Origin: Oncomelania hupensis
Lineage: Eukaryota; Mollusca; Gastropoda; Littorinimorpha; Pomatiopsidae
NCBI GenBank assembly: GCA_036898135.1
Contig: CM072513.1
Coordinates: 36,007,428-36,071,427 of the forward strand
Length of the DNA: 64,000 nt
Direction of reading: 5' to 3'
Shown: in pieces, positions 1,831-64,000 of the stretch
Layout of the letters: every line of letters starts with the position of its first letter
Numbering within the stretch: the stretch's first letter is position 1
The notes under the pieces: generated by a model
What the model saw: the letters and a program-made list of their open reading frames with translations, nothing else
Databases searched by the model: none
Told to the model about the DNA's origin: nothing
Made by a program: the position numbers and the translations under genes

Positions 1831-2384
1831 ACCGAGAGATCAATAGGCATACAACTCACAATGTGCACTCTATGTAGTAGCTTATCTTCACAACCTGCTA
1901 TTTGTCTTTGATATTGTTTACTCGTTCCAAGACGGATTCTTCTCTTATCAAACGGTTGCAATATTGGCAGTTGCTGCTAAAACATCAGATTGCTGTGCTA
2001 AACAACACTTCACTTCAAACCCGCTAAAGAGAGATATGAAAACGTGGACAAAAATCTGTTTTCCATTTATCTCAACACTGAAATTATCGAGCTTTACGCA
2101 CCAAGGAGGAATTAGTAAGAGGTCGGGGGAGGGGGGAGGGGGGAAATAGGGGAGAGGGAAGAGGTTAACGTGTAGCTAGGAAGGTGGATACGGCTGGATA
2201 ATGAATGGCTTATAATGGTGCCCAAAATATTGGACTGCAAATCAAATTATTTAGACTATATTTACAGCATGTGTGAATTTGTGCTGCCGTAAACATCTAG
2301 CCTACTTCTTAACATTATATCACAGAAAACGACAGCATCAATTTTGTTTTCGGAAACGACGAGTTAACATCGAAAAAAGATAAA

Positions 2385-2500
2385 TGAGCAGGACGGTGAG
2401 GAAGATGAAAATGAAGAAAGAGAAAGAAGGAGGAGGAGTAAAAGGAGGAGGAGAGATGAGGAGGAGGAGGCGAAGGAGGAAGAAGAAAAACAGCAGCAAC
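2385..2500. repeat. Purine-rich GGA/GAA tract
   Basis: The plus strand is almost pure purine, made of GGA and GAA triplets. It lies about 200 bases inside the presumed intron of the receptor gene. Confidence 0.6.
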
Positions 2501-2684
2501 AAGAAAAACACCATTCAAGATAGCAAAAATGTAACCAACAAATAAGCGAAACGAAGAACGAACAGAGAGGAGAATACAGAAAACAATATGGAAATCAATG
2601 GAAACCATAATATATTATTGTAATAGATGCAACAGCACAGATGGCAACCACACGACCTACAAACCACACCACATCACACACAAT

Positions 2685-2692
2685 CACTGACC
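2685..2692 (-). other. Splice donor of the receptor exon
   Basis: On the minus strand the junction reads AAAG|GTCAGTG, close to the metazoan donor consensus. The last exon base is 2692. The split codon is AG|N, as expected for the conserved Arg of the ER(Y) motif at the end of TM3. Confidence 0.8.
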
Positions 2693-3395
2693 TTTCCAGA
2701 GAGATGGCGACGAGCGTGAGGACGCTGGCGAAGACCATGATGGGAAGAACGTATGAGATGACCGGGCACAGGAGACGGTTGCCGAACACGTTCCAGTGGC
2801 AGGGGCTGCTGTATTCGAGCAGCTTCAGCGGCATCACCAACACCGACACCATCAGATCCGCCGCCGCCAGGTTGAGGATGTAGTAGTTGGTGACGGTGTG
2901 CATGTGGGCGTTGCGCCAGACGGTCAGGATGACCAGCGCGTTGCCGCAGACGCTGAGCACCATGATGAGGAGGTAGACCGCCACTAGCAAGCACAACACC
3001 CACCACGTCTGCGTGAGGTCCGAGTACTGGTTCCCCTTCATCGGGCCGCAGGGGTCCTCGTGGTAGCCCAGCAGCATGTCCATCGTCGTTGACGACGACG
3101 ACAACGATGTAGGTGTAGGTGAAAGAGATACCACCACCTCTCCTCCTCCTCCTCCAGCTCCTACTATTCCTCCTTCGGCTACTCCGGCTGTCTCAGCACT
3201 GTATCCTCCTCCACTTCCTAATCCGCCCCCTACTCCTCCATGTTTACTGATGCCAGTCATCGCGGAAGGAAAAGAGTCGCCCACAGATCGGAACGAAGAC
3301 TCAAACGCTGGCGCCACGGTGACCCAAGCTTTGGGGTCTTGGTGGGTCCAGCGACTTTCGGAAAGGTTGATATAGTACGTGGATTCGAACGCCAT
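2692..3395 (-). CDS. Class A GPCR, first coding exon (N-terminus to TM3)
   Basis: This is a partial gene: 234 codons plus two bases, read from the ATG at 3395. Residues 1-130 are extracellular, with an N-glycosylation sequon at N10 and a Gly-rich stretch (about 53-85). TM1 is about 131-157 with the GN pair (N152). TM2 is about 167-190 with the LAAAD motif (D180). The first extracellular loop carries WNVFG (W201) and is followed by the disulfide Cys C210. TM3 ends at VAISLER, where the DRY/ERY motif should continue in the next exon. An AAG|GTCAGTG donor sits exactly there, in phase 2. These are class A (rhodopsin-type) hallmarks, and the pattern resembles peptide receptors (the orexin, ETH-receptor or CCK-receptor assemblage). 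Ligand and subtype cannot be decided from one exon. The start codon has a purine at -3 and G at +4. TM4-TM7 must lie on exons beyond position 1. Confidence 0.88.
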
Positions 3396-3730
3396 TGCGG
3401 TAGCTTCTGTGTACCTGTCAGTAAACGCTTAAAGCCGAAGGTTGTGGTTTAGTGATTTGACAAAGTATCTGACACTGAATGAAGTGAAGTTTCTTTTAGA
3501 TTGAGAACTGAAACATAGAAAGGAAGTCGGTGCAATGAAATGAGCGAGAAATATAGTGCTACATGCATACAACGAACAATACAAAAGTTATTTCAATAAT
3601 GGTACTGGATGCAGTCAATACACAATTTTTAAAACTAAAAATTCTTTTTTTCCTTTCCGTCTTCCAATAGCGTTTTCCCTGCCTTTACACCACCTGTTTG
3701 AGTGATGGGTGTGTATTTGTTGTTGTGTGT
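3396..3730. other. Upstream side of the receptor exon; nothing defined
   Basis: This should hold the 5'UTR and perhaps the promoter or an upstream intron of the receptor. I see no convincing TATA box or other site. Confidence 0.4.
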
Positions 3731-3742
3731 GTGAGGGTGGAT

Positions 3743-3780
3743 GCGCTGGACCTAAAGCAATAATCATGTAGTGTAATGTA
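3743..3780 (+). mobile_element. Family A, 38-bp 5'-truncated copy
   Basis: Only the last bases of family A (GCTGGACCTAAAGCAAT) and a short (TAATG)-type tail are present. A perfect 12-bp target-site duplication TGAGGGTGGATG flanks it (3731-3742 and 3781-3792). This is extreme 5' truncation, as expected of target-primed reverse transcription. Confidence 0.8.
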
Positions 3781-3897
3781 ATGAGGGTGGATGAGACAGG
3801 TGAGCGTGTATGTTGGTACAGATCGCCGCGCTTTCAGCCTGATTGATTTGGAGAAAGGCGCGTACATAGCATCCTGTATTATTATTATTATTTAATT
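3781..3897 (+). repeat. (ATT)n-tailed dispersed repeat
   Basis: The element starts GATGAGACAGGTGAGCGTG and ends in CATCCTG followed by (TATTATT). The same sequence recurs inverted at 39498-39578 and partly at 48913-48962, on the two sides of the satellite array. It looks like the 3' part of a SINE or LINE. A family A copy is inserted just upstream. Confidence 0.7.
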
Positions 3898-4650
3898 ATC
3901 TTCAGTTTGATGGAGTAGTCTACTGGATTGTCTGTGCGACGCTTTCATCTACCATGTATTGCCACAGAACGCTATGGGGTGAGGGTGGGGTGGGGGATGT
4001 CATGCTTCTTCTGCCCTCATAACCTCCCTACCCGACGACCAGGACAGTCGAGGGTCTGAGATGAGGTTAGAAGAACACAGGCATGATGAGACGCATCTTC
4101 AGTGTGATCTGAAAAGCAACTGGGGTATTGAGAGTTTTATTTATTTAGGATGCCACAGGGATTACATTTTGAATCTTTCAAAACGCCACGTGAATGTCCT
4201 CTCGTATCTGTTCTGGTTCCCACCACTTTGTTAAAGAAACTTTTCTGTTGTCGCTGTATGCAAAACAAAACCAAAATCCATATTATTATTGTGAATCGGC
4301 AATCATTATTTTATGAGACTTGACCTGAAGCAAAATGCATGTAGATCGTGACAAATCAATTACGATGACAAAGAACCAGCCTGTATCATGCTTGCCTTAG
4401 GCATGTCTTCGTGGTAGGGGTTCAGGTGAAGGTATGTTAGTGTAGGGAGGCGCCAAGGGATGGGATTTGGGTGTGTGTTGGGTGTAAGAAGGTGGGGGAG
4501 GGGGAAGTGCCGAAAGGGAGTGTAGGTTAACACAACATCACATGTCTAAACATTCTCTAGCCATAGCAAATAATACACCACAACATTACCATAGCAACTA
4601 ACATTGCACATGTCTATTGACTTCAACCACAGGGGCATCCTCGAAAGCAA
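3898..4650. other. No gene seen
   Basis: Unique-looking intergenic sequence with a G-rich patch near 4490-4520. There are no coding or repeat signals that I can name. Confidence 0.5.
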
Positions 4651-4654
4651 AGCG

Positions 4655-4942
4655 GTAGCCTACCACAGTACACACTACAGCATGTAGTAGGCTATCGCTA
4701 CCACAGTACACACTGCATTATGTAGTAGGCTACTGCTACCACACTACACACTACAGTATGTAGTAGGCTACCGCTAACACAGTACATACTACTGTATTTG
4801 GTAGGCTATCGCTACCACAGTACACACTACTGTATGTAGTAGGCTATCGCTACCACAGTACACACTACTGTATTTGGTAGGCTATCGCTAACAAAGTACA
4901 CACTACTGTATGTAGTAGGCTACCGCTACCACAGTACACAGA
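4655..4942. repeat. 38-bp minisatellite, about 7.5 copies
   Basis: The unit includes ACAGTACACACTACTGTAT and GTAGTAGGCTATCGCTACC. Copies differ by a few bases (TATTTGGTAGG versus TATGTAGTAGG). CTACT and AGTAG inside the unit can pair as a small hairpin. The array abuts the 5' edge of an RTE LINE fragment. Confidence 0.85.
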
Positions 4943-6208
4943 GACCCATCAGTTCTAGCATGTCCCGAGAACAGAGAAGAAGAAATCCCAATTCTCCGAG
5001 GAGAAGTTGAGGCAGCAGTGCAGTCGCTGAAGAAAGGGAAGTCAGCGGGAGTGGACAACATACTCGCGGAACTGCTTCAAGCAGGAGGAGAAGCGATGAT
5101 TGACACCCTCACCATTATCTATAACAAGATCTGGCAGAGTGGAAAGTGGCCTACACCATGGACCCAGTCGCTTGTCATCACTCTTCCCAAAAAAGGTAAC
5201 CTTCAGGAGTGTAAAAATTACCGCACCATCAGCCTCATTAGCTATCTAAGCAAGGTCCTCCTAAAAATAATACTCAACAGGTTGAAACCCCAAATCATAG
5301 CTGAAGAACAAGTAGGATTCAGGGCAGGGTGAAGTACCACTGAACAGATTTTCAACCTCAGAATAATCTTTGAGAAATACCTACAGCGCCAACAACATCT
5401 TTATCAGGTGTGCGTAGACTTCAAGAAGGGGTTTGATCGAGTCTGGCATGCAGCTCTGTGCAACATCAGCCCTAAAATTATTAAAGTCATCAAAAGCCTG
5501 TATGACCAGGCTACCAGTGCAGTCCATAACAGCGCCATCAGAAACTGGTTCAGAACAACAATCGGTGTGCGTTTTGGATGCCTACTCTCTCCAACACTCT
5601 TCAACATCTTTCTAGAGCGCATCATGTCAGATGCCCTTGCAGATCACGAAGGCACAGTAAGCAAAGGGGGTAGATCAGTCTCCAACCTTCGTTTTGCGGT
5701 TGATATTGATGGATTGGCTGGAGAGGAACAAGAACTTAAACAGCTGGTACACAGGCTTGACACTACCTCCAGAGCCTATGGAATGGTAATAAGTGCAGAG
5801 AAGACCAAAATGATGACCAATAACACCAATGGCATCATCAACAAGGACATCAAAGTCCAAGGCCAATCCCTCAACACAGTGCATAGCTTCAAATATTTAG
5901 GAGCCATTGTATCAGACAATGGGTCCCGATAGGAAGTCCTCTCAGTAAGCATAGGGGGTAGATCAGTCTCCAACCTTCGTTTTGCGGTTGATATTGATGG
6001 ATTGGCTGGAGAGGAACAAGAACTTAAACAGCTGGTACACAGGCTTGACACTACCTCCAGAGCCTATGGAATGGTAATAAGTGCAGAGAAGACCAAAATG
6101 ATGACCAATAACACCAATGGCATCATCAACAAGGACATCAAAGTCCAATGCCAATCCCTCAACACAGTGCATAGCTTCAAATATTTAGGAGCCATTGTAT
6201 CAGACAAT
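4943..6208 (+). pseudogene. RTE-type LINE reverse transcriptase, decayed fragment
   Basis: This is a remnant of a non-LTR retrotransposon RT. Recognisable blocks in order are GKSAGVDNI, TLPKKGNLQECKNYR, EEQVGFRAG, CVDFKKGFDRVWH (motif A), GCLLSPTLFN (motif B) and NLRFAVDIDGLAG (motif C, where the usual FADD is FAVD). A TGA stop falls after FRAG at 5330-5332, and a catalytic Asp of motif C is lost, so it cannot be active. The endonuclease and the C-terminus are absent. The family is shared with fragments at 8428, 25725, 29095 and 37835. I place it in the RTE clade from the C-terminal block (GGRRRGR...RWEDNIREW) and the short-repeat tails of sister copies. That assignment rests on family knowledge and was not computed. 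Confidence 0.85.
5944..6208 (+). repeat. Second copy of a 288-bp tandem duplication inside the RTE fragment
   Basis: Bases 5656-5920 recur at 5944-6208, a fixed offset of 288, with only a few substitutions (for example CCAAGGCC versus CCAATGCC). The duplicated part spans RT motif C and the thumb, so the fragment carries two motif C blocks. The event occurred after the FADD-to-FAVD change, because both copies share it. Confidence 0.9.
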
Positions 6209-15939: not shown

Positions 15940-16835
15940 TACACCAAAAGACAGAACAGTAAGGGTACAGCTATTTACAACTATGTACAAAAATTATTTT
16001 AAAAAAAGACAGAAATAGACTATTTACAACTATGTACACAGATGACATAAAAGACAGAAATAGAATAGCAAAAAAACTATTCACAGCTATTTATATGCCC
16101 GGTTAGGCCCAAGAGGAAAAACAGTATAATTATGTACAGCCGTGTATACACTTACGGATCAGACAGAGACAAAAGAGGAGAATGGCAGCGGGATACAAAT
16201 CAGTCTGAATAATGCAGTTTGAAGAGGTGGGTTTTGAGGGCCTTTTTGAATGCTTGTGTTGATTGTATGTTGCGGATATGGGAGGGAAGGGAATTCCACT
16301 GCTTAGGTGCGGCGTAGGCGAATGCACGTTGGCCGTATGTCTTAGTGCGGGTGACGGGAACCTTGAGTGTGCGAGTTTCAGCAGAAGATCTTAAAGTGCG
16401 TGAAGGGGAGTAGACAGACAGCAGGTCAGCAAGGTAGGAGGGACAAGAATCAGTGAAGAAGTTGTGACAGAGAACAGAGAGTCTATGCGTGCTTGCACAG
16501 GAAGCCAGTGAAGGGAATGTATTAGAGGTGTGATGTGATCGCGTTTCTTAGCTCGGAATACTAGTCTAGCTGCTGAGTTCTGAACCTTTTGTAGCTTGTC
16601 AATGATGTGTTTTGGGGAGCCAGCGAGGAGAGAGTTGCAATAGTCAAGACGAGAAAGGACGAGAGCGCAGACTAGGGTTTTGGTGGCAGTGAGTGTAAGA
16701 TAGTGGCGAAAGGAGCTGATTTGGCGTATGGCCGTGTATGCAGAGCGACAGACGTTGGAGATGTGGTTGTTGAGGGACAGGTCATCGGAGAGAATGTAGC
16801 CGAGATTTCTTGCTGAGGATGAGAACTGAATGTTT
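15940..16835 (-). pseudogene. Older L2/CR1-like LINE, 3' part (RT C-terminus and 3'UTR)
   Basis: On the minus strand from 16835 the reading is SSARNLGYILSDDLSL, VCRSAYTAIRQIS, LSRLDYCNSLLAG, LHWLPVQARI and, after frameshifts, WNSLPSHIRNIQSTQAFKKA. That is the usual order for the thumb and C-terminus of L2/CR1-group LINEs. The upstream RT core of the same copy is at 21148-21585, separated by the 2A-bearing LINE. Stops and frame changes show it is dead. The 3' part has a partial internal duplication (AGACAGAAATAG..CTATTTACAACTATGTAC near 15960-16080). Confidence 0.85.
16822..16835. repeat. 14-bp target duplication, 3' side of the LINE
   Basis: AGAACTGAATGTTT, identical to 21148-21161. The bases beyond differ on both sides, so 14 bp is the full length. 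It derives from the TNIQFSS codons of the older LINE. Confidence 0.93.
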
Positions 16836-16851
16836 CTTGTTTTAACATAAG

Positions 16852-16857
16852 TTTATT
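16852..16857 (-). terminator. AATAAA polyadenylation signal of the LINE
   Basis: On the minus strand GAATAAACTT lies 16 bases before the inferred 3' end of the element, a normal distance to an RNA cleavage site. This supports the boundary set by the target duplication. Confidence 0.75.
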
Positions 16858-17261
16858 CAACAACAAACCAGATATTAATACAATGGAAAACATCAGGGCA
16901 CACAAAAGCACAAGGCTTAAATAAGTGCTACCCAAATAATAATAATGTGTCAAAATATCACTGGCGGACGACATGAAACAACAACAGAACATTGATAGAA
17001 ATACAAGAAATAAAAAAAAAGAAATAATTTTTTAATAAAAAGAAAAGAAAATTTTAGACAAAAAAAAAAGATTTCGAAGTGAAGAGGAAGAAAAAAAAGG
17101 AAAGGGGGTGCATGGTGGTGGTGGGGGAGTGGGGTTGGGCGTGGAGGGGGAGGGGCGGGTGTGAGAGAGTTATACTTGTGGGAAGAAAATAATGAGTGTG
17201 TTGAAGATCAAAGTTAGAAAGCGAAGTATGTGGAAAGTCGTTGAAAATAAAATTTGAAAAT

Positions 17262-17345
17262 ACAATATAATATAATATAATATAATATAATATAATATAA
17301 TATAATATAATATAATATAATATAATATAATATAACATAATATAA
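17262..17345 (-). repeat. (TTATA)n pentanucleotide array in the LINE 3'UTR
   Basis: It starts only about 15 bases after the TGA stop of the LINE frame. It is internal to the element, because about 425 more bases precede the target duplication. Confidence 0.95.
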
Positions 17346-17358
17346 GCCTAATATGCGG

Positions 17359-20300
17359 TCAGAATCGGTTACATGAAAGTAAAAATGTGTGAACAGTTGA
17401 AAACGTCTTGGCATTTTCTTGCAATGACAATTCTGCATTTCCAAAGAGTAAGGTATTAACTTCCCTTAGTACAGGATCAAGAAGACCAATCGTTTGAATA
17501 CGGGCATCGTCAAACAAAGGACAAAAAAGCAGGAAGTGTTCAGACGTTTCGGCCGGGTGTCCGCAACGGCAAATCGGGTCGTTTATCAAATGGCGACGAT
17601 ACATATCGTAGTTAAGGTTGCTTACACCCAGCCGAAGCCTGCAATGGATAATTTGTTGTTGTCGTGCACCATGATAATAAAAAGGCGGGACTACAGAGTC
17701 GTCTTTGGAGAGATGTCGTTTAAATAGGCTGACTGACGGATTGACTTGAATTTCCTCAGGGAGCTCATTCCACATGCTAGTAGAAGAGGGGATAAAGGAA
17801 TTTTTGTAGATTTCAATGTTGTGTGCGGGGATTCTACGCTCGAAAGGCCTTCGACGGTGGTAAGGATTAACTGACGAGACAAGCGGTGGGACCAAGTCAG
17901 AAAGATACTCAGGACAGCGCTCATTGACCATTTTATGGAAGGTAAGTAGTTTGTGCCGCCTACGTCTTTCTTTCAATGGGCAGAGCCCGGATTCCCTGTA
18001 CAAGGATTCATGGCTAGTTCCCTTTACTGCCCCTACAATTATTCTAATCCCTTCGAGATGAAGTTTTTCAAGTGAAGTAGCTTGAGTGTCAGTACAATTG
18101 TCCCATATTACATCGCCATAATCAAAATGAGGTAAAACAAAGGACTTATACATGACTTCGAGGGCTTTTCTGCACAGTTTGTATTTGTATGATCGTAAGC
18201 ATGCCAGTAGAAGAGTTACCATCTTAATTATGCTATTTATGTGTATATCCCACTTACAATTGTTTTGCAATGTCAGGCCTAGATGTTTATGGTGATCAGT
18301 TTCAGACAAAGTCGTGCTATTAAATATTAGAGGATGGTTTGGCAATGTGTCACGTTTAAAGGTTAAGAGTTCGGTTTTTTGTTCATTGAAAATTACTTTC
18401 CATTTTTTAGCCCAATTACTAATTTTCTCTAGGTCTGAATTTAGAATTTCGGCTCGAATGTCAGGGTTTTTTAGGGCTAGAGATATGCTAGTGTCGTCAG
18501 CAAAGAGTTTGATTATGGATTCAATGTTTGCAACAATATCATTAATGTATACAAGAAATAATAAAGGTCCCAAGACAGACCCTTGAGGTACGCCTGCGGA
18601 GATGGGTTTGTAGGTTGACTTACTGCCTTTAATGACGACGGCTTGTCTACGGTTTTTAAGATAGTCAACAAAAAATTGGAGAAGTTTGCCTCTTATACCT
18701 ATAGCTGCTAGTTTAGCTAATAATCCCTTGTGCCATACTCTATCAAAAGCTTTGGATATATCGAAATAGATAGATTGGTTTGTTATTCTGTTGTTATAGG
18801 CCAGGCATATGTCATTATAAATGAAAATTAACTGATTAATAGTAGAATCGCCATGTATAAATCCAGACTGAGATTGAGTTAGAATATTGTTATTGTTCAA
18901 AAATGAATACAAATGGATATGGATACAACGTTCAAGGATTTTTCCGATGCAGCTTAAAAGTGAGATAGGACGATAGTTAGTACATAATTCGGTGGGACCT
19001 TTTTTGTGGATTGGTGTGACATGTGCTGTTTTCCAAGTTTCTGGGAACAGTCCTTCCGACAAACAGCGGTTAAAAAGTAGACTTAACGGTTCAGAAATTA
19101 CATCAACCGCTGCTATCAGTAATTTGTTATGAATTTTGTCTGGGCCAACAGCTTTATTTGGGTCTAGATGTTTTATAACTTTGGCTACTTCTGATGGGGT
19201 AATTACAATTTCATTAAGTTCATTTTCTAGGTAAGGCAGCTCAGGAGGGTTGTCATCAGGTGTTTCTAAGGTTGATTGTTGGATAAAATATTCATTAAAA
19301 GCATTTGCTTTTTCCTCATTGGTATTGCATGGTTTTCCGTTGAATAGGATTGGTGGTATGCTATCGGAGATGCCCTTTTTGTTCATAAAAGCTTTAACTA
19401 ATTTCCACCAGTCTTTGGTTCCAAACTGTGTAGGGTCAGATGCCTTTTGGTCTAATTCGTTTAAAAAATCTAATTTTCTTTGTTTAATCTTATGCGTCAC
19501 CTGGTTTCTAAATTGCCGATATACTTTCCAATCGTTGGTTTTATTGGTTTGTTTGGCATGTTTAAATAATGTATATCTTCTTTTAAGGGCGTGGCGGATT
19601 TCATTAGTTAACCAGGCAGCATCTCTGCTACGTATAGTGACCATTTTCACAGGCATACATTTACAGGCAATATCAAAGAAAGACGCAGCGAAATCTTCGG
19701 CGCATTTGTGTATGTTCCCTGTTGTGATCTTTTCGTGCCAATTTATTTCTGAGAGCATATTACAGAATTGGTCAGAGTCTAGTTTATCATAATTATATAT
19801 AGTTCTTGTATATGAACATTTTGTGTTGATACTGTTGGTAACTGTAACGCACGGTACACAGTGATCACTGCAAATTTCAGGAAGTACTTCTACGTTTTTA
19901 ACTAAATTGGTGCTCTGTGTCATTACTAAGTCAATACAGGTGCTAGTAGTTTCAGTTATCCTTGTGTCTGAGTTTGTAAGCTGATTTAAACTAAACATAT
20001 TGAGGGTATCTAACAAGTGTTTAGAGGGAGAGTTGAAGTCGTCATTGAAGTCACCTAGTATTATGAATTTGCAGCCCGTGTTGTTGACTTTCCGAAGGCT
20101 TTCTTGAACTAAATTCCAGTATTCAACAGACAGACTAGGTTGACGGTAAAAGGATCCTATTAGTAATGGTTCGTTATTAAGCTGGGTTTCTATCCATATT
20201 GTTTCTAAGTTGGGTACATAGAGATCTGGTCTAGGTTTACAAACGAGATGACATTTAACATAGATAGCAACACCACCCCAGCCCTGGTTGACTCTGTCTA

Positions 20301-20823
20301 ATCTAACTGGGGGATGGAAATTCTGGAGGTCAGTTTCATTACTTGTGTGGGAAGGATTAAACAACGTTTCAGAACAGGTAATGATGTCAAACTTGTGACT
20401 TTCAGCTTCAATTAAACTTTTATGTCGTGGAAAACTTCTACAGTTCAAATGAATAATTTTAAGTTCATGATATGGGTTAGGCCCTGGATTGAGTTCTATA
20501 TCTCCGCAGACCAGCAAAAGCAGTAGAGCTAAAGCAAGCAAAGAGTTTAAAGAGTGTGAGCTTGGTGTTTGAGTAGTTGCTGGCAAGGGATTACAGCATG
20601 TCCTATATGGCTGAGAACTGATCATGATGTTAGAGAATACAGTACTGTTAAAGAGGAAAAAAACAAAGAGGGATAACGATATACCTCTTTGGTTAAAATT
20701 GAACAAGAAAATGAGGAAAGCTGCGACATCAAACTTATTGTGGAATATCTTACTATTACAGCTGACCGCTTGAGAGTAAAAGTATCCAACCCTGGCTCTG
20801 TAGGTACGTAAGTCGCAAGTCAT
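17359..20823 (-). CDS. LINE polyprotein: 2A leader, AP endonuclease, reverse transcriptase
   Basis: 1154 residues, no internal stop. Residues 94-106 are a hydrophobic leader, and 107-115 are GDIELNPGP, the 2A skipping motif, with the break expected between G114 and P115. The AP-type endonuclease follows (about 121-325): HLNCRS (N127), SETL (E152), GSFYRQ, GDFN (257-260), TCIDL (D298) and SDH (319-321). The RT (about 540-860) has HKKG...NYRPISL, QSGF, FDISKAFDRVWH (D688), [10 protein letters not shown] and FADD (774-777). The C-terminus carries C1085, C1087, H1096 and C1101, a zinc-knuckle-like pattern. All catalytic positions I can check are kept. The start may be M1 (20823) or M67 (20625); M67 has A at -3 and begins a compact 48-residue leader, so I favour it. 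The enzyme nicks target DNA and copies its own RNA in place. Confidence 0.95.
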   Translation of the reverse strand: MTCDLRTYRARVGYFYSQAVSCNSKIFHNKFDVAAFLIFLFNFNQRGISLSLFVFFLFNSTVFSNIMISSQPYRTCCNPLPATTQTPSSHSLNSLLALALLLLLVCGDIELNPGPNPYHELKIIHLNCRSFPRHKSLIEAESHKFDIITCSETLFNPSHTSNETDLQNFHPPVRLDRVNQGWGGVAIYVKCHLVCKPRPDLYVPNLETIWIETQLNNEPLLIGSFYRQPSLSVEYWNLVQESLRKVNNTGCKFIILGDFNDDFNSPSKHLLDTLNMFSLNQLTNSDTRITETTSTCIDLVMTQSTNLVKNVEVLPEICSDHCVPCVTVTNSINTKCSYTRTIYNYDKLDSDQFCNMLSEINWHEKITTGNIHKCAEDFAASFFDIACKCMPVKMVTIRSRDAAWLTNEIRHALKRRYTLFKHAKQTNKTNDWKVYRQFRNQVTHKIKQRKLDFLNELDQKASDPTQFGTKDWWKLVKAFMNKKGISDSIPPILFNGKPCNTNEEKANAFNEYFIQQSTLETPDDNPPELPYLENELNEIVITPSEVAKVIKHLDPNKAVGPDKIHNKLLIAAVDVISEPLSLLFNRCLSEGLFPETWKTAHVTPIHKKGPTELCTNYRPISLLSCIGKILERCIHIHLYSFLNNNNILTQSQSGFIHGDSTINQLIFIYNDICLAYNNRITNQSIYFDISKAFDRVWHKGLLAKLAAIGIRGKLLQFFVDYLKNRRQAVVIKGSKSTYKPISAGVPQGSVLGPLLFLVYINDIVANIESIIKLFADDTSISLALKNPDIRAEILNSDLEKISNWAKKWKVIFNEQKTELLTFKRDTLPNHPLIFNSTTLSETDHHKHLGLTLQNNCKWDIHINSIIKMVTLLLACLRSYKYKLCRKALEVMYKSFVLPHFDYGDVIWDNCTDTQATSLEKLHLEGIRIIVGAVKGTSHESLYRESGLCPLKERRRRHKLLTFHKMVNERCPEYLSDLVPPLVSSVNPYHRRRPFERRIPAHNIEIYKNSFIPSSTSMWNELPEEIQVNPSVSLFKRHLSKDDSVVPPFYYHGARQQQIIHCRLRLGVSNLNYDMYRRHLINDPICRCGHPAETSEHFLLFCPLFDDARIQTIGLLDPVLREVNTLLFGNAELSLQENAKTFSTVHTFLLSCNRF
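20479..20505 (-). other. 2A ribosome-skipping motif GDIELNPGP
   Basis: The codons read GGA GAT ATA GAA CTC AAT CCA GGG CCT. This matches the D-[V/I]-E-x-N-P-G|P consensus at every position. Such motifs make ribosomes release the upstream peptide at Gly and continue from Pro. Here that would free the endonuclease-RT from a hydrophobic leader. The function is inferred from the motif. Confidence 0.92.
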
Positions 20824-21147
20824 TTAAGTTATTGTACTCGAGAGTATAGAGAAGAGGAAGTTGGCCAGGGGTAGGAGGCAAAACTTTGTCTTGGTAGTGT
20901 AAATATTTGTGTCTCTCCACAAAATCTCTCTCTCAGTGGGAGTGGGGGTCAGAAATAACATCGCTAAGCAAAATAACAAATGAAAAAGGGACAATAAACA
21001 AAATATAATAAACTTAAAATGTATTAAAAATTGTTTACAAAATCGTAGTCAACAAGAAAGAAAAATCAAAAATGAAATATGCAAAAACAACGACGGTATG
21101 AGTATTGCGACATGTGAGGGGAACGCTCGTGCCATGTATAGGTATAT

Positions 21148-21161
21148 AGAACTGAATGTTT
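21148..21161. repeat. 14-bp target duplication, 5' side of the LINE
   Basis: Perfect partner of 16822-16835; it marks the 5' end of the inserted LINE at 21147. Confidence 0.93.
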
Positions 21162-21585
21162 GTTGTCCCTACTGTAAGCGATGTTGGGAGAGGCGGGAGT
21201 AAGGAGGAGGTGTTGTGCTTGTGAATGAGGAGGGCTTCGGTTTTATCGTCATTAAGCTTAAGCTTGTTGAGTGTCATCCATGACTTAATGTCTGTGATGC
21301 AGTTCTCCAAAGTCTGAACAGTGGAATTAATGAGAGAGGGGGCAGTGGATTTATAAAGTTGTGTGTCGTCTGCAAATGACTGACTCTCAACAGCATGCTT
21401 TCTAAGCAGGAGAAGCAGTGGCCTGGTGTACAGAGTGAACAACACCGGCCCTAAAACGGAACCCTGAGGCACGCCGCACACCAATTCTGCTGTGCTGGAG
21501 AAACAGCCATCGATAGTGACTGCTTGTGATCTGTCAGAAAGATATGAGTGGAACCAAGCCAGGACCTTCAAGCCGTGTGGTTCAC
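21148..21585 (-). pseudogene. Older L2/CR1-like LINE, RT core
   Basis: The reading [20 protein letters not shown], then [17 protein letters not shown] (motif B) and SFADDTQLY (motif C), continues to [11 protein letters not shown], where the 2A LINE interrupts it. The frame resumes at 16821 with SSSARNLGY, in phase. The catalytic FADD is kept in this half; the 5' part of the element (endonuclease) is missing. Confidence 0.88.
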
Positions 21586-21700
21586 TCAGAAATAGGGTCA
21601 AAAGTCACATCGCTATGGTATTGATGTACCGTTAAAACAGGGGAAATCACTCCCTGTCCGCCCAGAAATGGAAAACTCAAACTTAAGCGGTTGGCTTGAG
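21586..21700 (-). repeat. Dispersed repeat shared with 59645-59745
   Basis: The minus strand reads GACAGGGAGTGATTTCCCCT, then TTTTAACGGTA, CATAGC, TTTGACCCTATTTCTGAGTG and CGGCTTGAA. The same string appears on the plus strand at 59645-59745. It abuts the broken edge of the older LINE. Confidence 0.75.
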
Positions 21701-62444: not shown

Positions 62445-64000
62445 GGATTTATTCAAAACATTGTTTTTGACATTTTAGAGAACTGTTTATAGTTTCTGAC
62501 AAGACTGGTATCCACAAAGAAACGGGTTATCTTCTGACTTGTGTTATTGAGAAGTAAAGACATTTTAAACATACAGGGTTGTCTAATGTATTTTTTCTGT
62601 ATGTACTGCGTACGTAGATCCGAGTACTTAGGACAAACAAGCAAGAAATGTATTTCAGTCTCAGGCACACCCTCACAAAAGGGACAAAAAATATTTGGAT
62701 CCTTACGTAAACCCTCATATTGGAGAAAATGATGACGTAGTGGTAACATACCAAATCTAAATCTAGTGAAAATGTTGCGTGCGTGAATGCACTGAACATA
62801 ACTGAAGTAAAGACGGAGTGATAGTGAAGAAAAAAAAAAAGACGAATAAACACTATAAAACGTGTGGGACTGAAACGCAGAATGTCAATCCTGATAAAAC
62901 AGTCTTTAAGGCGCTGTTTAAACTCAGCAATAAACAATTTAGTACTCCCAACCGATTGCGCTTCCCACACCACTCCAAACCCATACCTGTACAAAACGTT
63001 TCTCACATTGCATGCCCACGTTGTGTAGTTTTGTCTTTGAAGAAAGAGAATCGTGTTTTAGGCTTTTTGGGGGATTCTGGTATCACCCATGGAAACCACA
63101 CATAACCAGAACCTAATACATTTAGCGTAAGTATTAATAAAGAGAGGATACCTGCCTAGTTCGCCGTAAATGACATGTTTTGGCGCTCTTTGAGTGACGC
63201 ACATGAATCGTTTCATTGCAGAAAGGTGCACACGCAGAATTATAGTCTGGTTAGCAGTGAGACCCCAAACTTCTGCACCGTAGGTGAGAATAGGCTGTAT
63301 CTGACTGTCGAAAAATTTAAAGAAAAATTCTGGCGAATGTTCTCCAATTGACCACATCAGTCTTACAAGGGTTGCGGCTCCCTTTCTTGCACGTTCAGAC
63401 AAGTCTGATAAAGTTGGTTGGAACGAAACTCTTGTAGTAATAATAATGCCCAAATACTTATACGCATTAAACAGCGGTGATGCTAGCGTCTCCAAATACC
63501 CATCTCTCATTCTGAGCAAGGAATCCGTTTCTAAATACAATAACATTCGATTTCTCAAGATTTACAATAAAATCTAGGCGTCTAGCAACATTGTACAAAA
63601 TATTTAGCTGAGTTTGAAGACCAATAATACTATCAGATAAAAGTGCTACATCTTCAGCGAACAATAAAATTAATATTTCAATAATGTCCGGAGACTTTCC
63701 GTGTCTGCCGTTTGCATTTATTTCCTTAGTTAACTCATTAATTAGAAGTGAAAATAAAACCGGTGGACAGCAATCACTCTGCTTGAGGCCACGAGGACAT
63801 AGAAAAACGTCAGTGAGGTCAGCACCAGCTCGTACTCGGGTCTTAACGACGTTGTACATGCTCTTAAGGGCGTTTAGACACTTTCCGTTGATACCATTTA
63901 CGTGTAAAATTTTCCACAGCTTATCCATGCACACAGTGTCAAATGCTTTTTCAAAATCAATAAATGCCACGTATAATTTACGGTGTCTAACCAATTGCTT
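62445..64000 (-). pseudogene. LINE reverse transcriptase, decayed, runs off the window
   Basis: From the right edge on the minus strand: YVAFIDFEKAFDTVCMDKLW (motif A), CPRGLKQSDCCPPVLFSLLI (motif B, usually KQGC.LSP), ILLFAEDVALLSD (motif C, FADD changed to FAED), NAYKYLGIII and ILTYGAEVWGL. After frameshifts comes GLRKDPNIFCPFCEGVPETE and IHFLLVCPKY, a C-x2-C..H-x4-C zinc-knuckle-like block near the end. At least two frame breaks (near 63500 and 63055) and the changed motif C show it is dead. The clade is not assigned. Confidence 0.88.

Follow-up and report, generated by a model that had tools for sequence, protein, structure and literature searches.

A long interspersed nuclear element (LINE) with a viral-type 2A motif lies on the minus strand of a 64,000-nucleotide stretch of the Oncomelania hupensis genome (assembly GCA_036898135.1, contig CM072513.1, positions 36,007,428 to 36,071,427), which we call the window. 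We read this element, with a probability of roughly 0.8, as a recent, 5'-truncated copy of a LINE with two open reading frames (ORFs) and an apurinic/apyrimidinic (AP) endonuclease (APE-type LINE). In its ORF2, a leader and a 2A core precede the endonuclease (EN) and the reverse transcriptase (RT), and the leader would be released by StopGo.

The window copy is a young insertion with an open ORF2

The features of the element and its insertion site are as follows.
16836-21147, minus: element of 4312 bp, read as a 5'-truncated copy of a two-ORF APE-type LINE (family A); sister copies have the same 3' end and the longer ones extend 5'.
16822-16835, no strand: target-site duplication at the element 3' end, AGAACTGAATGTTT, identical to the other copy at 14/14 positions.
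21148-21161, no strand: target-site duplication at the element 5' end, AGAACTGAATGTTT.
20824-21147, minus: start of the window copy, a putative remnant of the ORF1-ORF2 spacer or ORF2 5' region; copies L019-L024 and L031 run past it upstream.
17359-20823, minus: ORF2, 1154 amino acids, with the order leader, 2A, AP endonuclease, RT, CxC..H..C end (ORF, Pfam, alignment).
20503-20823, minus: leader, residues 1-107, with a YRARVGYF motif near the N-terminus and hydrophobic peaks at residues 50-68 and 91-109 (motif and hydropathy).
20479-20502, minus: 2A/StopGo core DIELNPGP, residues 108-115, with the predicted skip at Gly114/Pro115 (core and upstream LLLVCG).
19861-20448, minus: Exo_endo_phos (AP endonuclease), residues 126-321 (Pfam, E 2.3e-11).
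18271-19011, minus: RVT_1 reverse transcriptase, residues 605-851 (Pfam, E 1.5e-34).
17521-17571, minus: C-terminal CxC..H..C motif (CRCGHPAETSEHFLLFC), with four invariant Cys/His columns in 20 sequences.
17259-17345, minus: (AATAT)n array in the 3' untranslated region (UTR), present also in sister copy L031.
21148-21604, minus: older LINE (RT fragment) split by the insertion, upstream part (frame, Pfam).
16200-16835, minus: older LINE split by the insertion, downstream part (frame).

The preliminary description of this DNA, made from its letters, had claimed a 1154-codon open frame with an exact DIELNPGP between a leader and the enzyme. All of this holds. The frame contains no internal stop, the AP endonuclease begins after the core, and the core is the sole NPGP across the six frames of the window. 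From composition, about 1.6e-7 exact occurrences of the DIELNPGP 8-mer are expected in the ORF2 protein. The catalytic residues and the zinc-knuckle-like end are retained, as the same description had it. In an alignment of 20 sequences including that of the window (its numbering is ORF2 numbering minus 1, the reference starting at codon 2), the endonuclease residues, the FADD box of the RT and the CxC...H...C end are invariant or at least 90% conserved. The four Cys/His columns of the C-terminal motif are invariant in 20/20. ORF2 also matches the RT of LINE-1 ORF2p (PDB 8sxt, E 8e-16). An AP-type endonuclease and an RT in one frame, with catalytic residues kept, place the element among APE-type LINEs, and its recent insertion is supported.

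The claim of a perfect 14-bp target duplication is likewise confirmed, and AGAACTGAATGTTT has no further occurrence on either strand of the window. If one mismatch is allowed, the duplication could alternatively be 19 bp long (18/19, judged by eye). When the insert and one copy of the duplication are removed, the frame of an older LINE is continuous over the junction (...VGTTNIQF / SSSARNLGY...), which indicates that the insertion hit this older element. Rfam and tRNA scans of the 64-kb window gave no match.

The search of the host genome covered 1.45 Gb in 428 contigs; only the best candidates were scored, so that copy counts are lower bounds. With the ORF2 frame as tblastn query, family A comprises the window copy (100%), one copy at 99% and several at 96-97% identity, at full or near-full length. 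Family B is represented by at least 21 places at 73-74% identity. Most of these have 1106-codon open frames (1105 amino acids from Met) with a leader much shorter than in family A. In 14 of 15 family-A loci the 3' end falls at element base 4311 or 4312 (at 3705 in L032), while 5' ends vary, and five truncated family-A copies have candidate duplications of 6-13 bp. Target-site duplications, though not in every copy, together with a common 3' end and variable 5' truncation, identify a retrotransposon without long terminal repeats (non-LTR). Differences between the window copy and its sisters amount to 36 of 4310 sites for L019 and 21 of 3633 for L028. The window copy is young: it carries 13 private substitutions in 4.3 kb (5 in UTR, 3 synonymous and 5 non-synonymous), scored where six or more other copies could be read and were in agreement.

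Longer copies carry an ORF1 upstream of a long spacer

The window copy begins 324 bp 5' of ORF2. Upstream of this point, seven sister copies (L019-L024 and L031) continue. They enter tandem repeats of 24 and 41 bp, and most also contain an (AT)n tract. Farther upstream, homology is common to L021, L022 and L019, and in L021 and L019 it contains a reading frame. The spacer is homologous among these three and the C2 copy (L071 with L064). The ORF1 frame of the C2 copy has 363 codons, and its product matches LINE-1 ORF1p (PDB 2ykp/2yko, E 2e-4). ORF2 starts 2485 bp past the end of this ORF1. The spacer of about 2.5 kb (2233-4718 from the L071 start) is unusually long for a LINE and may contain a second promoter. 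Candidate duplications occur in L021 (14 bp) and L019 (13 bp), each at the point where homology to the C2 copy starts. As seen in these copies of the same genome, the longer form would comprise an ORF1 of L1 type and ORF2, separated by a tandem-repeat-rich spacer of about 2.5 kb.

The arrangement recurs across families. An ORF1 match lies on the same strand, 2.65-3.4 kb upstream, at 13 of 40 ORF2 places (6/19 in family A, 7/21 in family B). This pairing used 33 ORF1 matches from the genome search, and its counts are lower bounds. In a third family, all four ORF1 matches looked up lie 2.7-3.4 kb before a listed 2A site. At the family level there is thus more than one ORF, and the preliminary assignment to a single-ORF element is not supported. 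Since ORF1 is found upstream in sister copies, the single ORF of the window copy is best read as the result of 5' truncation. The element had also been called apparently intact, which is right for the ORF2 frame and not supported for the element, as it is 5'-truncated and lacks the ORF1 of its sister copies. Because ORF1 and the upstream region are absent, the window copy keeps ORF2 but probably would not mobilise itself unaided.

The 5' ends of 12 family-B copies, measured as loss of homology to one of the 12, are consistent with this. Homology is lost at 88, 114, 203, 217, 375, 691, 767, 1573 or 1887 bp before the ATG, or reaches about the end of the fetched sequence. In L045 it breaks at 217 bp, yet an ORF1 is present farther upstream. 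Such scattered ends point to truncation or local rearrangement and not to one common single-ORF start.

The 2A core is conserved at the amino-acid level

Conservation of the core was followed in 121 proteins, the best 120 of 370 listed protein matches plus the window protein. An NPGP occurs within the first 260 residues in 107 of them. Among the 14 others, P0032 (DIEEHPGP), P0049 (DVHPHPGP, with His at positions 14 and 16) and P0063 (DIHPNPGT) have a changed core further in, and P0088 begins almost at the changed core DVHLNSGP. In ten of the 121 proteins no core-like sequence was found.

Between subfamilies, represented by copies L018 and L022, residues 91-114 contain two differing codons, both synonymous, and the ratio of non-synonymous to synonymous substitution (dN/dS) is 0.13 for EN and 0.18 for RT. 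The L033/L035 pair, whose segments had been delimited with the residue numbering of family A, does not enter this comparison. Between families A and B, 12 of 14 aligned 2A codons differ but only 2 of 14 residues, with synonymous sites saturated; in the rest of the aligned leader dN is 0.39, against 0.15 in EN. These substitution patterns support purifying selection on 2A at the amino-acid level.

The core fits the StopGo consensus (D/G/C/N)(V/I)ExNPGP and has a recognised upstream context, with LLLVCG directly before DIELNPGP. PMC12846837 treats L-rich upstream hexapeptides, which LLLVCG fits, as a recognised class of StopGo context, and reports activity of such cores and of L-rich upstream contexts in reticulocyte lysate. 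Judged by its sequence, the 2A of the window copy is very probably active.

Leaders share an N-terminal motif and are often hydrophobic

Among leaders of at least 60 residues, the motif [YFHWC]-R-x3-G-x-[FYWHN] lies within 45 residues of the N-terminus in 46 of 85 of the EN-RT type (window protein included) and in 18 of 40 of the ORF1 type. It was picked after inspection of the sequences. In 200 leader shuffles, the EN-RT set gave a mean of 0.2 and a maximum of 2, and the ORF1 set a maximum of 2. A profile comparison of the N-terminal ends reached 97% with motif-selected rows, a value biased by that selection. The comparison was therefore repeated on unselected rows, where the result was much weaker (17%, E 0.0015; at most 0.1% in 30 column shuffles). 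A common origin of EN-RT and ORF1 leaders is suggested by these alignments.

Among leaders of at least 40 residues, a 19-residue segment above 1.6 on the Kyte-Doolittle (KD) scale is present in 74 of 96 EN-RT and 41 of 48 ORF1 leaders, and in none of the matched stretches after 2A. The two peaks of the window protein reach 1.82 (residues 50-68) and 2.11 (residues 91-109), with one more segment above 1.6 elsewhere. As in sea-urchin NLR proteins, the window protein has a hydrophobic stretch directly before the core; family B has none there.

Position 14 is mostly Glu or His

The third residue of the core, at position 14, is Glu in 54 and His in 46 of the 107 core-bearing proteins, the remainder being Gln (3), Lys (2), Asn (1) and Phe (1). 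Pro follows His-14 in 32 of 46. We placed the listed relatives and the window protein, where at least 850 amino acids long and core-bearing, on a quick maximum-likelihood tree of the sequence after 2A (101 rows). At least 12 changes between Glu and His are required on this tree, counted from Glu and His rows with the Gln, Lys, Asn and Phe rows left out.

The same two residues dominate in the host genome. The pattern D[V/I]xxNPGP gave 723 sites (63 for the reversed-pattern control), 565 of them in the Glu form D[V/I]ExNPGP (control 1) and 116 in the His form (control 0). His thus accounts for 116 of the 681 Glu-or-His sites. All remaining residues at this position amount to 42 sites together, which is not above background. 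The first 100 of the 723 listed sites comprise 81 Glu, 11 His and 8 others.

In PMC12846837, His-14 is flagged as rare in viruses and was measured at more than 95% activity in lysate. Within the literature searched, the string HPNPGP occurs in one paper, a mycovirus study. In the literature searched, seen in part, we found no report of His-14 cores in LINEs, and we do not claim priority.

Points against the proposed reading and alternative explanations

Several observations weigh against a two-ORF element with a released leader. Among the copies read, none combines a complete ORF1 with a complete ORF2; L021 and L019 have a truncated ORF1, runs of N lie upstream in L022, and the ORF2 frame of the C2 copy breaks after 831 codons. 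No plausible duplication was found within the fetched flanks of L020, L022, L023, L024 and L031, and at 27 of the 40 ORF2 places the 6 kb upstream contain no ORF1 match. In the leader, L022 has the second peak only and the 65-residue leader of family B contains no segment above 1.6. With the upstream peak absent in L022 and none in family B, a membrane anchor is not general. Constraint is weak over much of the leader: the 11 codons of residues 1-90 that differ between L018 and L022 all change the residue (dN/dS 1.44, from small numbers), as do 5 of 5 between L018 and L019. The latter pair also has a single residue change within 91-114, which lies outside the core. According to PMC12846837, chimeric StopGo sequences are often inactive, so the core alone does not tell activity.

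The best-surviving alternative, which we nevertheless consider unlikely, gives the leader peptide a function of its own, such as docking the ribosome or the ORF2 mRNA at a membrane. 2A would then serve to free the leader intact, and the enzyme would follow. The motif common to EN-RT and ORF1 leaders, at counts far above the shuffles, speaks for such a role, as does the alignment of the N-terminal ends, which is strong in the biased motif-selected rows and weak in the unselected ones. A working peptide is harder to reconcile with a leader middle that evolves freely and with the roughly 50 residues missing in family B. P0015, P0026, P0033 and P0034 even start almost at 2A, although these are perhaps mis-started predictions.

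It is improbable that the window copy is a genuine single-ORF LINE, with leader-2A-EN-RT alone as the mobile unit and the upstream ORF1 copies as unrelated elements. The many ORF2 places with no ORF1 match nearby would fit such a unit, and open ORF2 frames are common while a complete pair of ORFs is missing among the copies read. Against this, same-strand pairs of ORF1 and ORF2 from one family keep a near-constant distance, L019, L021, L022 and the C2 copy have homologous spacers, and the candidate duplications of L021 and L019 fall at or inside ORF1. The scattered 5' ends of the 12 family-B copies also argue for the truncated two-ORF element.

That 2A is a relic, its hydrophobic stretch retained as a signal or anchor while DIELNPGP no longer skips, is highly improbable: hydrophobic leaders are common and changed cores such as DIHPNPGT and DVHLNSGP occur, but core residues are conserved despite synonymous divergence, only Glu or His exceeds background at position 14 of the 723 genome sites, and the high activity reported in PMC12846837 for His-14 in a viral context fits a working core.

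2A is found on several types of LINE frame

Twenty of the 723 sites were read by eye, namely the first 12 and the last 8 of the first 100 listed. LINE frames account for 19: 11 are ORF1-type, 7 EN-RT and 1 PHD-EN, and the remaining site is not in a frame. The ORF1-type frames (leader, 2A, a coiled-coil-like part and a basic part) have Glu at position 14 in 11/11. The PHD-EN site, with both domains detected by Pfam, has the His core DIHSNPGP. For three 2A-bearing ORF1-type frames, Pfam gave matches below the cut-off only, many of coiled-coil type. The label ORF1-type is based on visual inspection, on the presence of an EN frame downstream in several cases, and on the PDB match for family A.

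One ORF1-type protein used as query retrieved 73 relatives. The core is present in 54, or in 55 with a slightly shorter pattern, and has Glu in 55/55. Named members come from ticks, one Hydra and one fish; the Hydra protein, the fish protein and some tick proteins among the 73 have no core. His-14 thus occurs in 0/55 ORF1p cores versus 46/107 EN-RT cores, a comparison that is no test of independent events because the rows are related.

At nine 2A-bearing ORF1-type loci (L060:1849, L062 (reverse) 2491, L065:2500, L051:2999, L063:2143, L067:2281, L048:2331, L056:2634 and L059:2838), which by eye fall into about seven families, in-frame coding sequence toward an endonuclease frame begins immediately after the ORF1 stop (TAA, TAG or TGA). 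In 7 of these 9 loci the sequence directly past the stop is similar to GGATGTGGCCAG (G-C-G-Q-S-like). L050 is an exception, and L051 has seven codons available after the stop, with ORF1 frame-shifted. From its sequence, this context looks like a second recoding site, by readthrough or stop-restart. L046 and L049 are LINE frames in which the leader and a 2A of the His form precede a PHD finger, and L049 runs on into the endonuclease. The core letters of L049 are the commonest among 100 His sites listed.

In viral contigs, 75 stretches matched the pattern and none was a relative. In contigs of prokaryote genomes, 17 loci encode a relative. L001-L004, L011 and L015, from mussel-symbiont assemblies, have a frame with an NPGP core, and L005-L010 and L012-L014 have frames of more than 700 amino acids with no NPGP core; for L016 and L017 no such frame was listed. 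The 2A LINEs in mussel-symbiont or Thiolapillus assemblies (including P0003) are probably host DNA in bacterial bins.

Elsewhere in the window, 4919-5932 (plus) and 62527-63994 (minus) are further LINE RT fragments with no NPGP. A fragment of a G-protein-coupled receptor lies at 2595-3395, minus (7tm_1, E 5.6e-20). Its relatives include some that carry the name leucokinin receptor. The nearest named ones belong to two caenogastropods, Batillaria attramentaria (73%, covering 46% of the query) and Nucella lapillus (68%, covering 52%), which makes a caenogastropod snail the probable source of the genome.

Proposed mechanism and relation to known systems

Most likely, by analogy with known 2A peptides, StopGo at Gly114/Pro115 would in most rounds let the 114-residue leader, with its hydrophobic end, leave as a separate peptide. 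The enzyme would start at Pro115 as a soluble protein. Conceivably, though with slightly less than even odds, the unskipped product keeps its leader and is drawn to membranes, lowering the amount of free enzyme; we suggest this from the analogy with sea-urchin NLR 2A signal sequences. At the skipping decision, the residues adjoining the core would presumably still be in the exit tunnel, which makes membrane recognition before skipping unlikely in family B. The upstream stretch 50-68 of the window copy could already be exposed at that time.

2A on APE-type LINEs is a known class. Odon and colleagues are said to have described it in 2013 in APE-type non-LTR retrotransposons of the Rex1, Crack, L2, L2A and CR1 clades, and reportedly linked it to one-ORF elements. 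Like those LINEs, the element described here has an AP endonuclease, an RT and a 2A in the EN-RT frame. It differs in that its longer copies have an ORF1 about 2.5 kb upstream; in the same genome, other families have 2A on ORF1-type frames. In L1Tc of Trypanosoma cruzi, Heras and colleagues reportedly found in 2006 a 2A in frame before the endonuclease, after a short leader. That reported order of 2A and endonuclease is the same here; L1Tc is a trypanosome element. LINE-1 is not known to have a 2A. A likeness is that ORF1 of family A matches ORF1p (PDB 2yko/2ykp) and ORF2 matches the ORF2p RT (PDB 8sxt). The spacer sets the two apart: 63 nt between ORF1 and ORF2 in LINE-1, as stated in PMC5972666, and about 2.5 kb here.

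With viral StopGo sequences (PMC12846837), the window 2A shares the canonical core, a G at position 11 and the L-rich upstream hexapeptide. Unlike in viruses, where that source has His-14 as rare, His is a second regular state in LINEs (46/107 EN-RT proteins, 116/681 genome sites). In sea-urchin NLR proteins, skipping decides between the cytoplasm and the secretory path (Roulston et al. 2016, PMC4981915). A hydrophobic N-terminal stretch lies directly before a D[V/I]ExNPGP core there too. The sea-urchin case concerns a 26-residue leader on an immune receptor, unlike the LINE enzyme here, with 65-115 residues of leader with core and an extra motif.

With caution, the hidden ORF1, the alternation of Glu and His, and the leader motif can be regarded as additions to the known class.

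Significance

Tentatively, and at less than even odds, these observations can be extended to animal LINEs in general. A portable N-terminal cassette, made of an R-x3-G-x-F leader, a hydrophobic stretch and StopGo, would sit on ORF1p or on EN-RT depending on the family, and the freed leader would have a job of its own. Position 14 would act as a two-state Glu/His switch, with His on EN-RT-containing frames and in none of the 55 ORF1p relatives. Possibly, this switch sets how much enzyme escapes the leader.

A practical caution follows for annotation: a 2A-bearing LINE labelled single-ORF may derive, by 5' truncation, from a two-ORF element with a long spacer. If the cassette reading is true, 2A would be a standing part of the LINE toolkit, neither a replacement for a lost ORF1 nor a rare viral loan. 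With about 680 2A cores of the Glu or His type in one genome, the role of 2A in LINEs becomes testable. A single host offers natural pairs that differ in Glu or His at position 14, in a leader on ORF1p or on EN-RT, and in a long (family A) or short (family B) leader.

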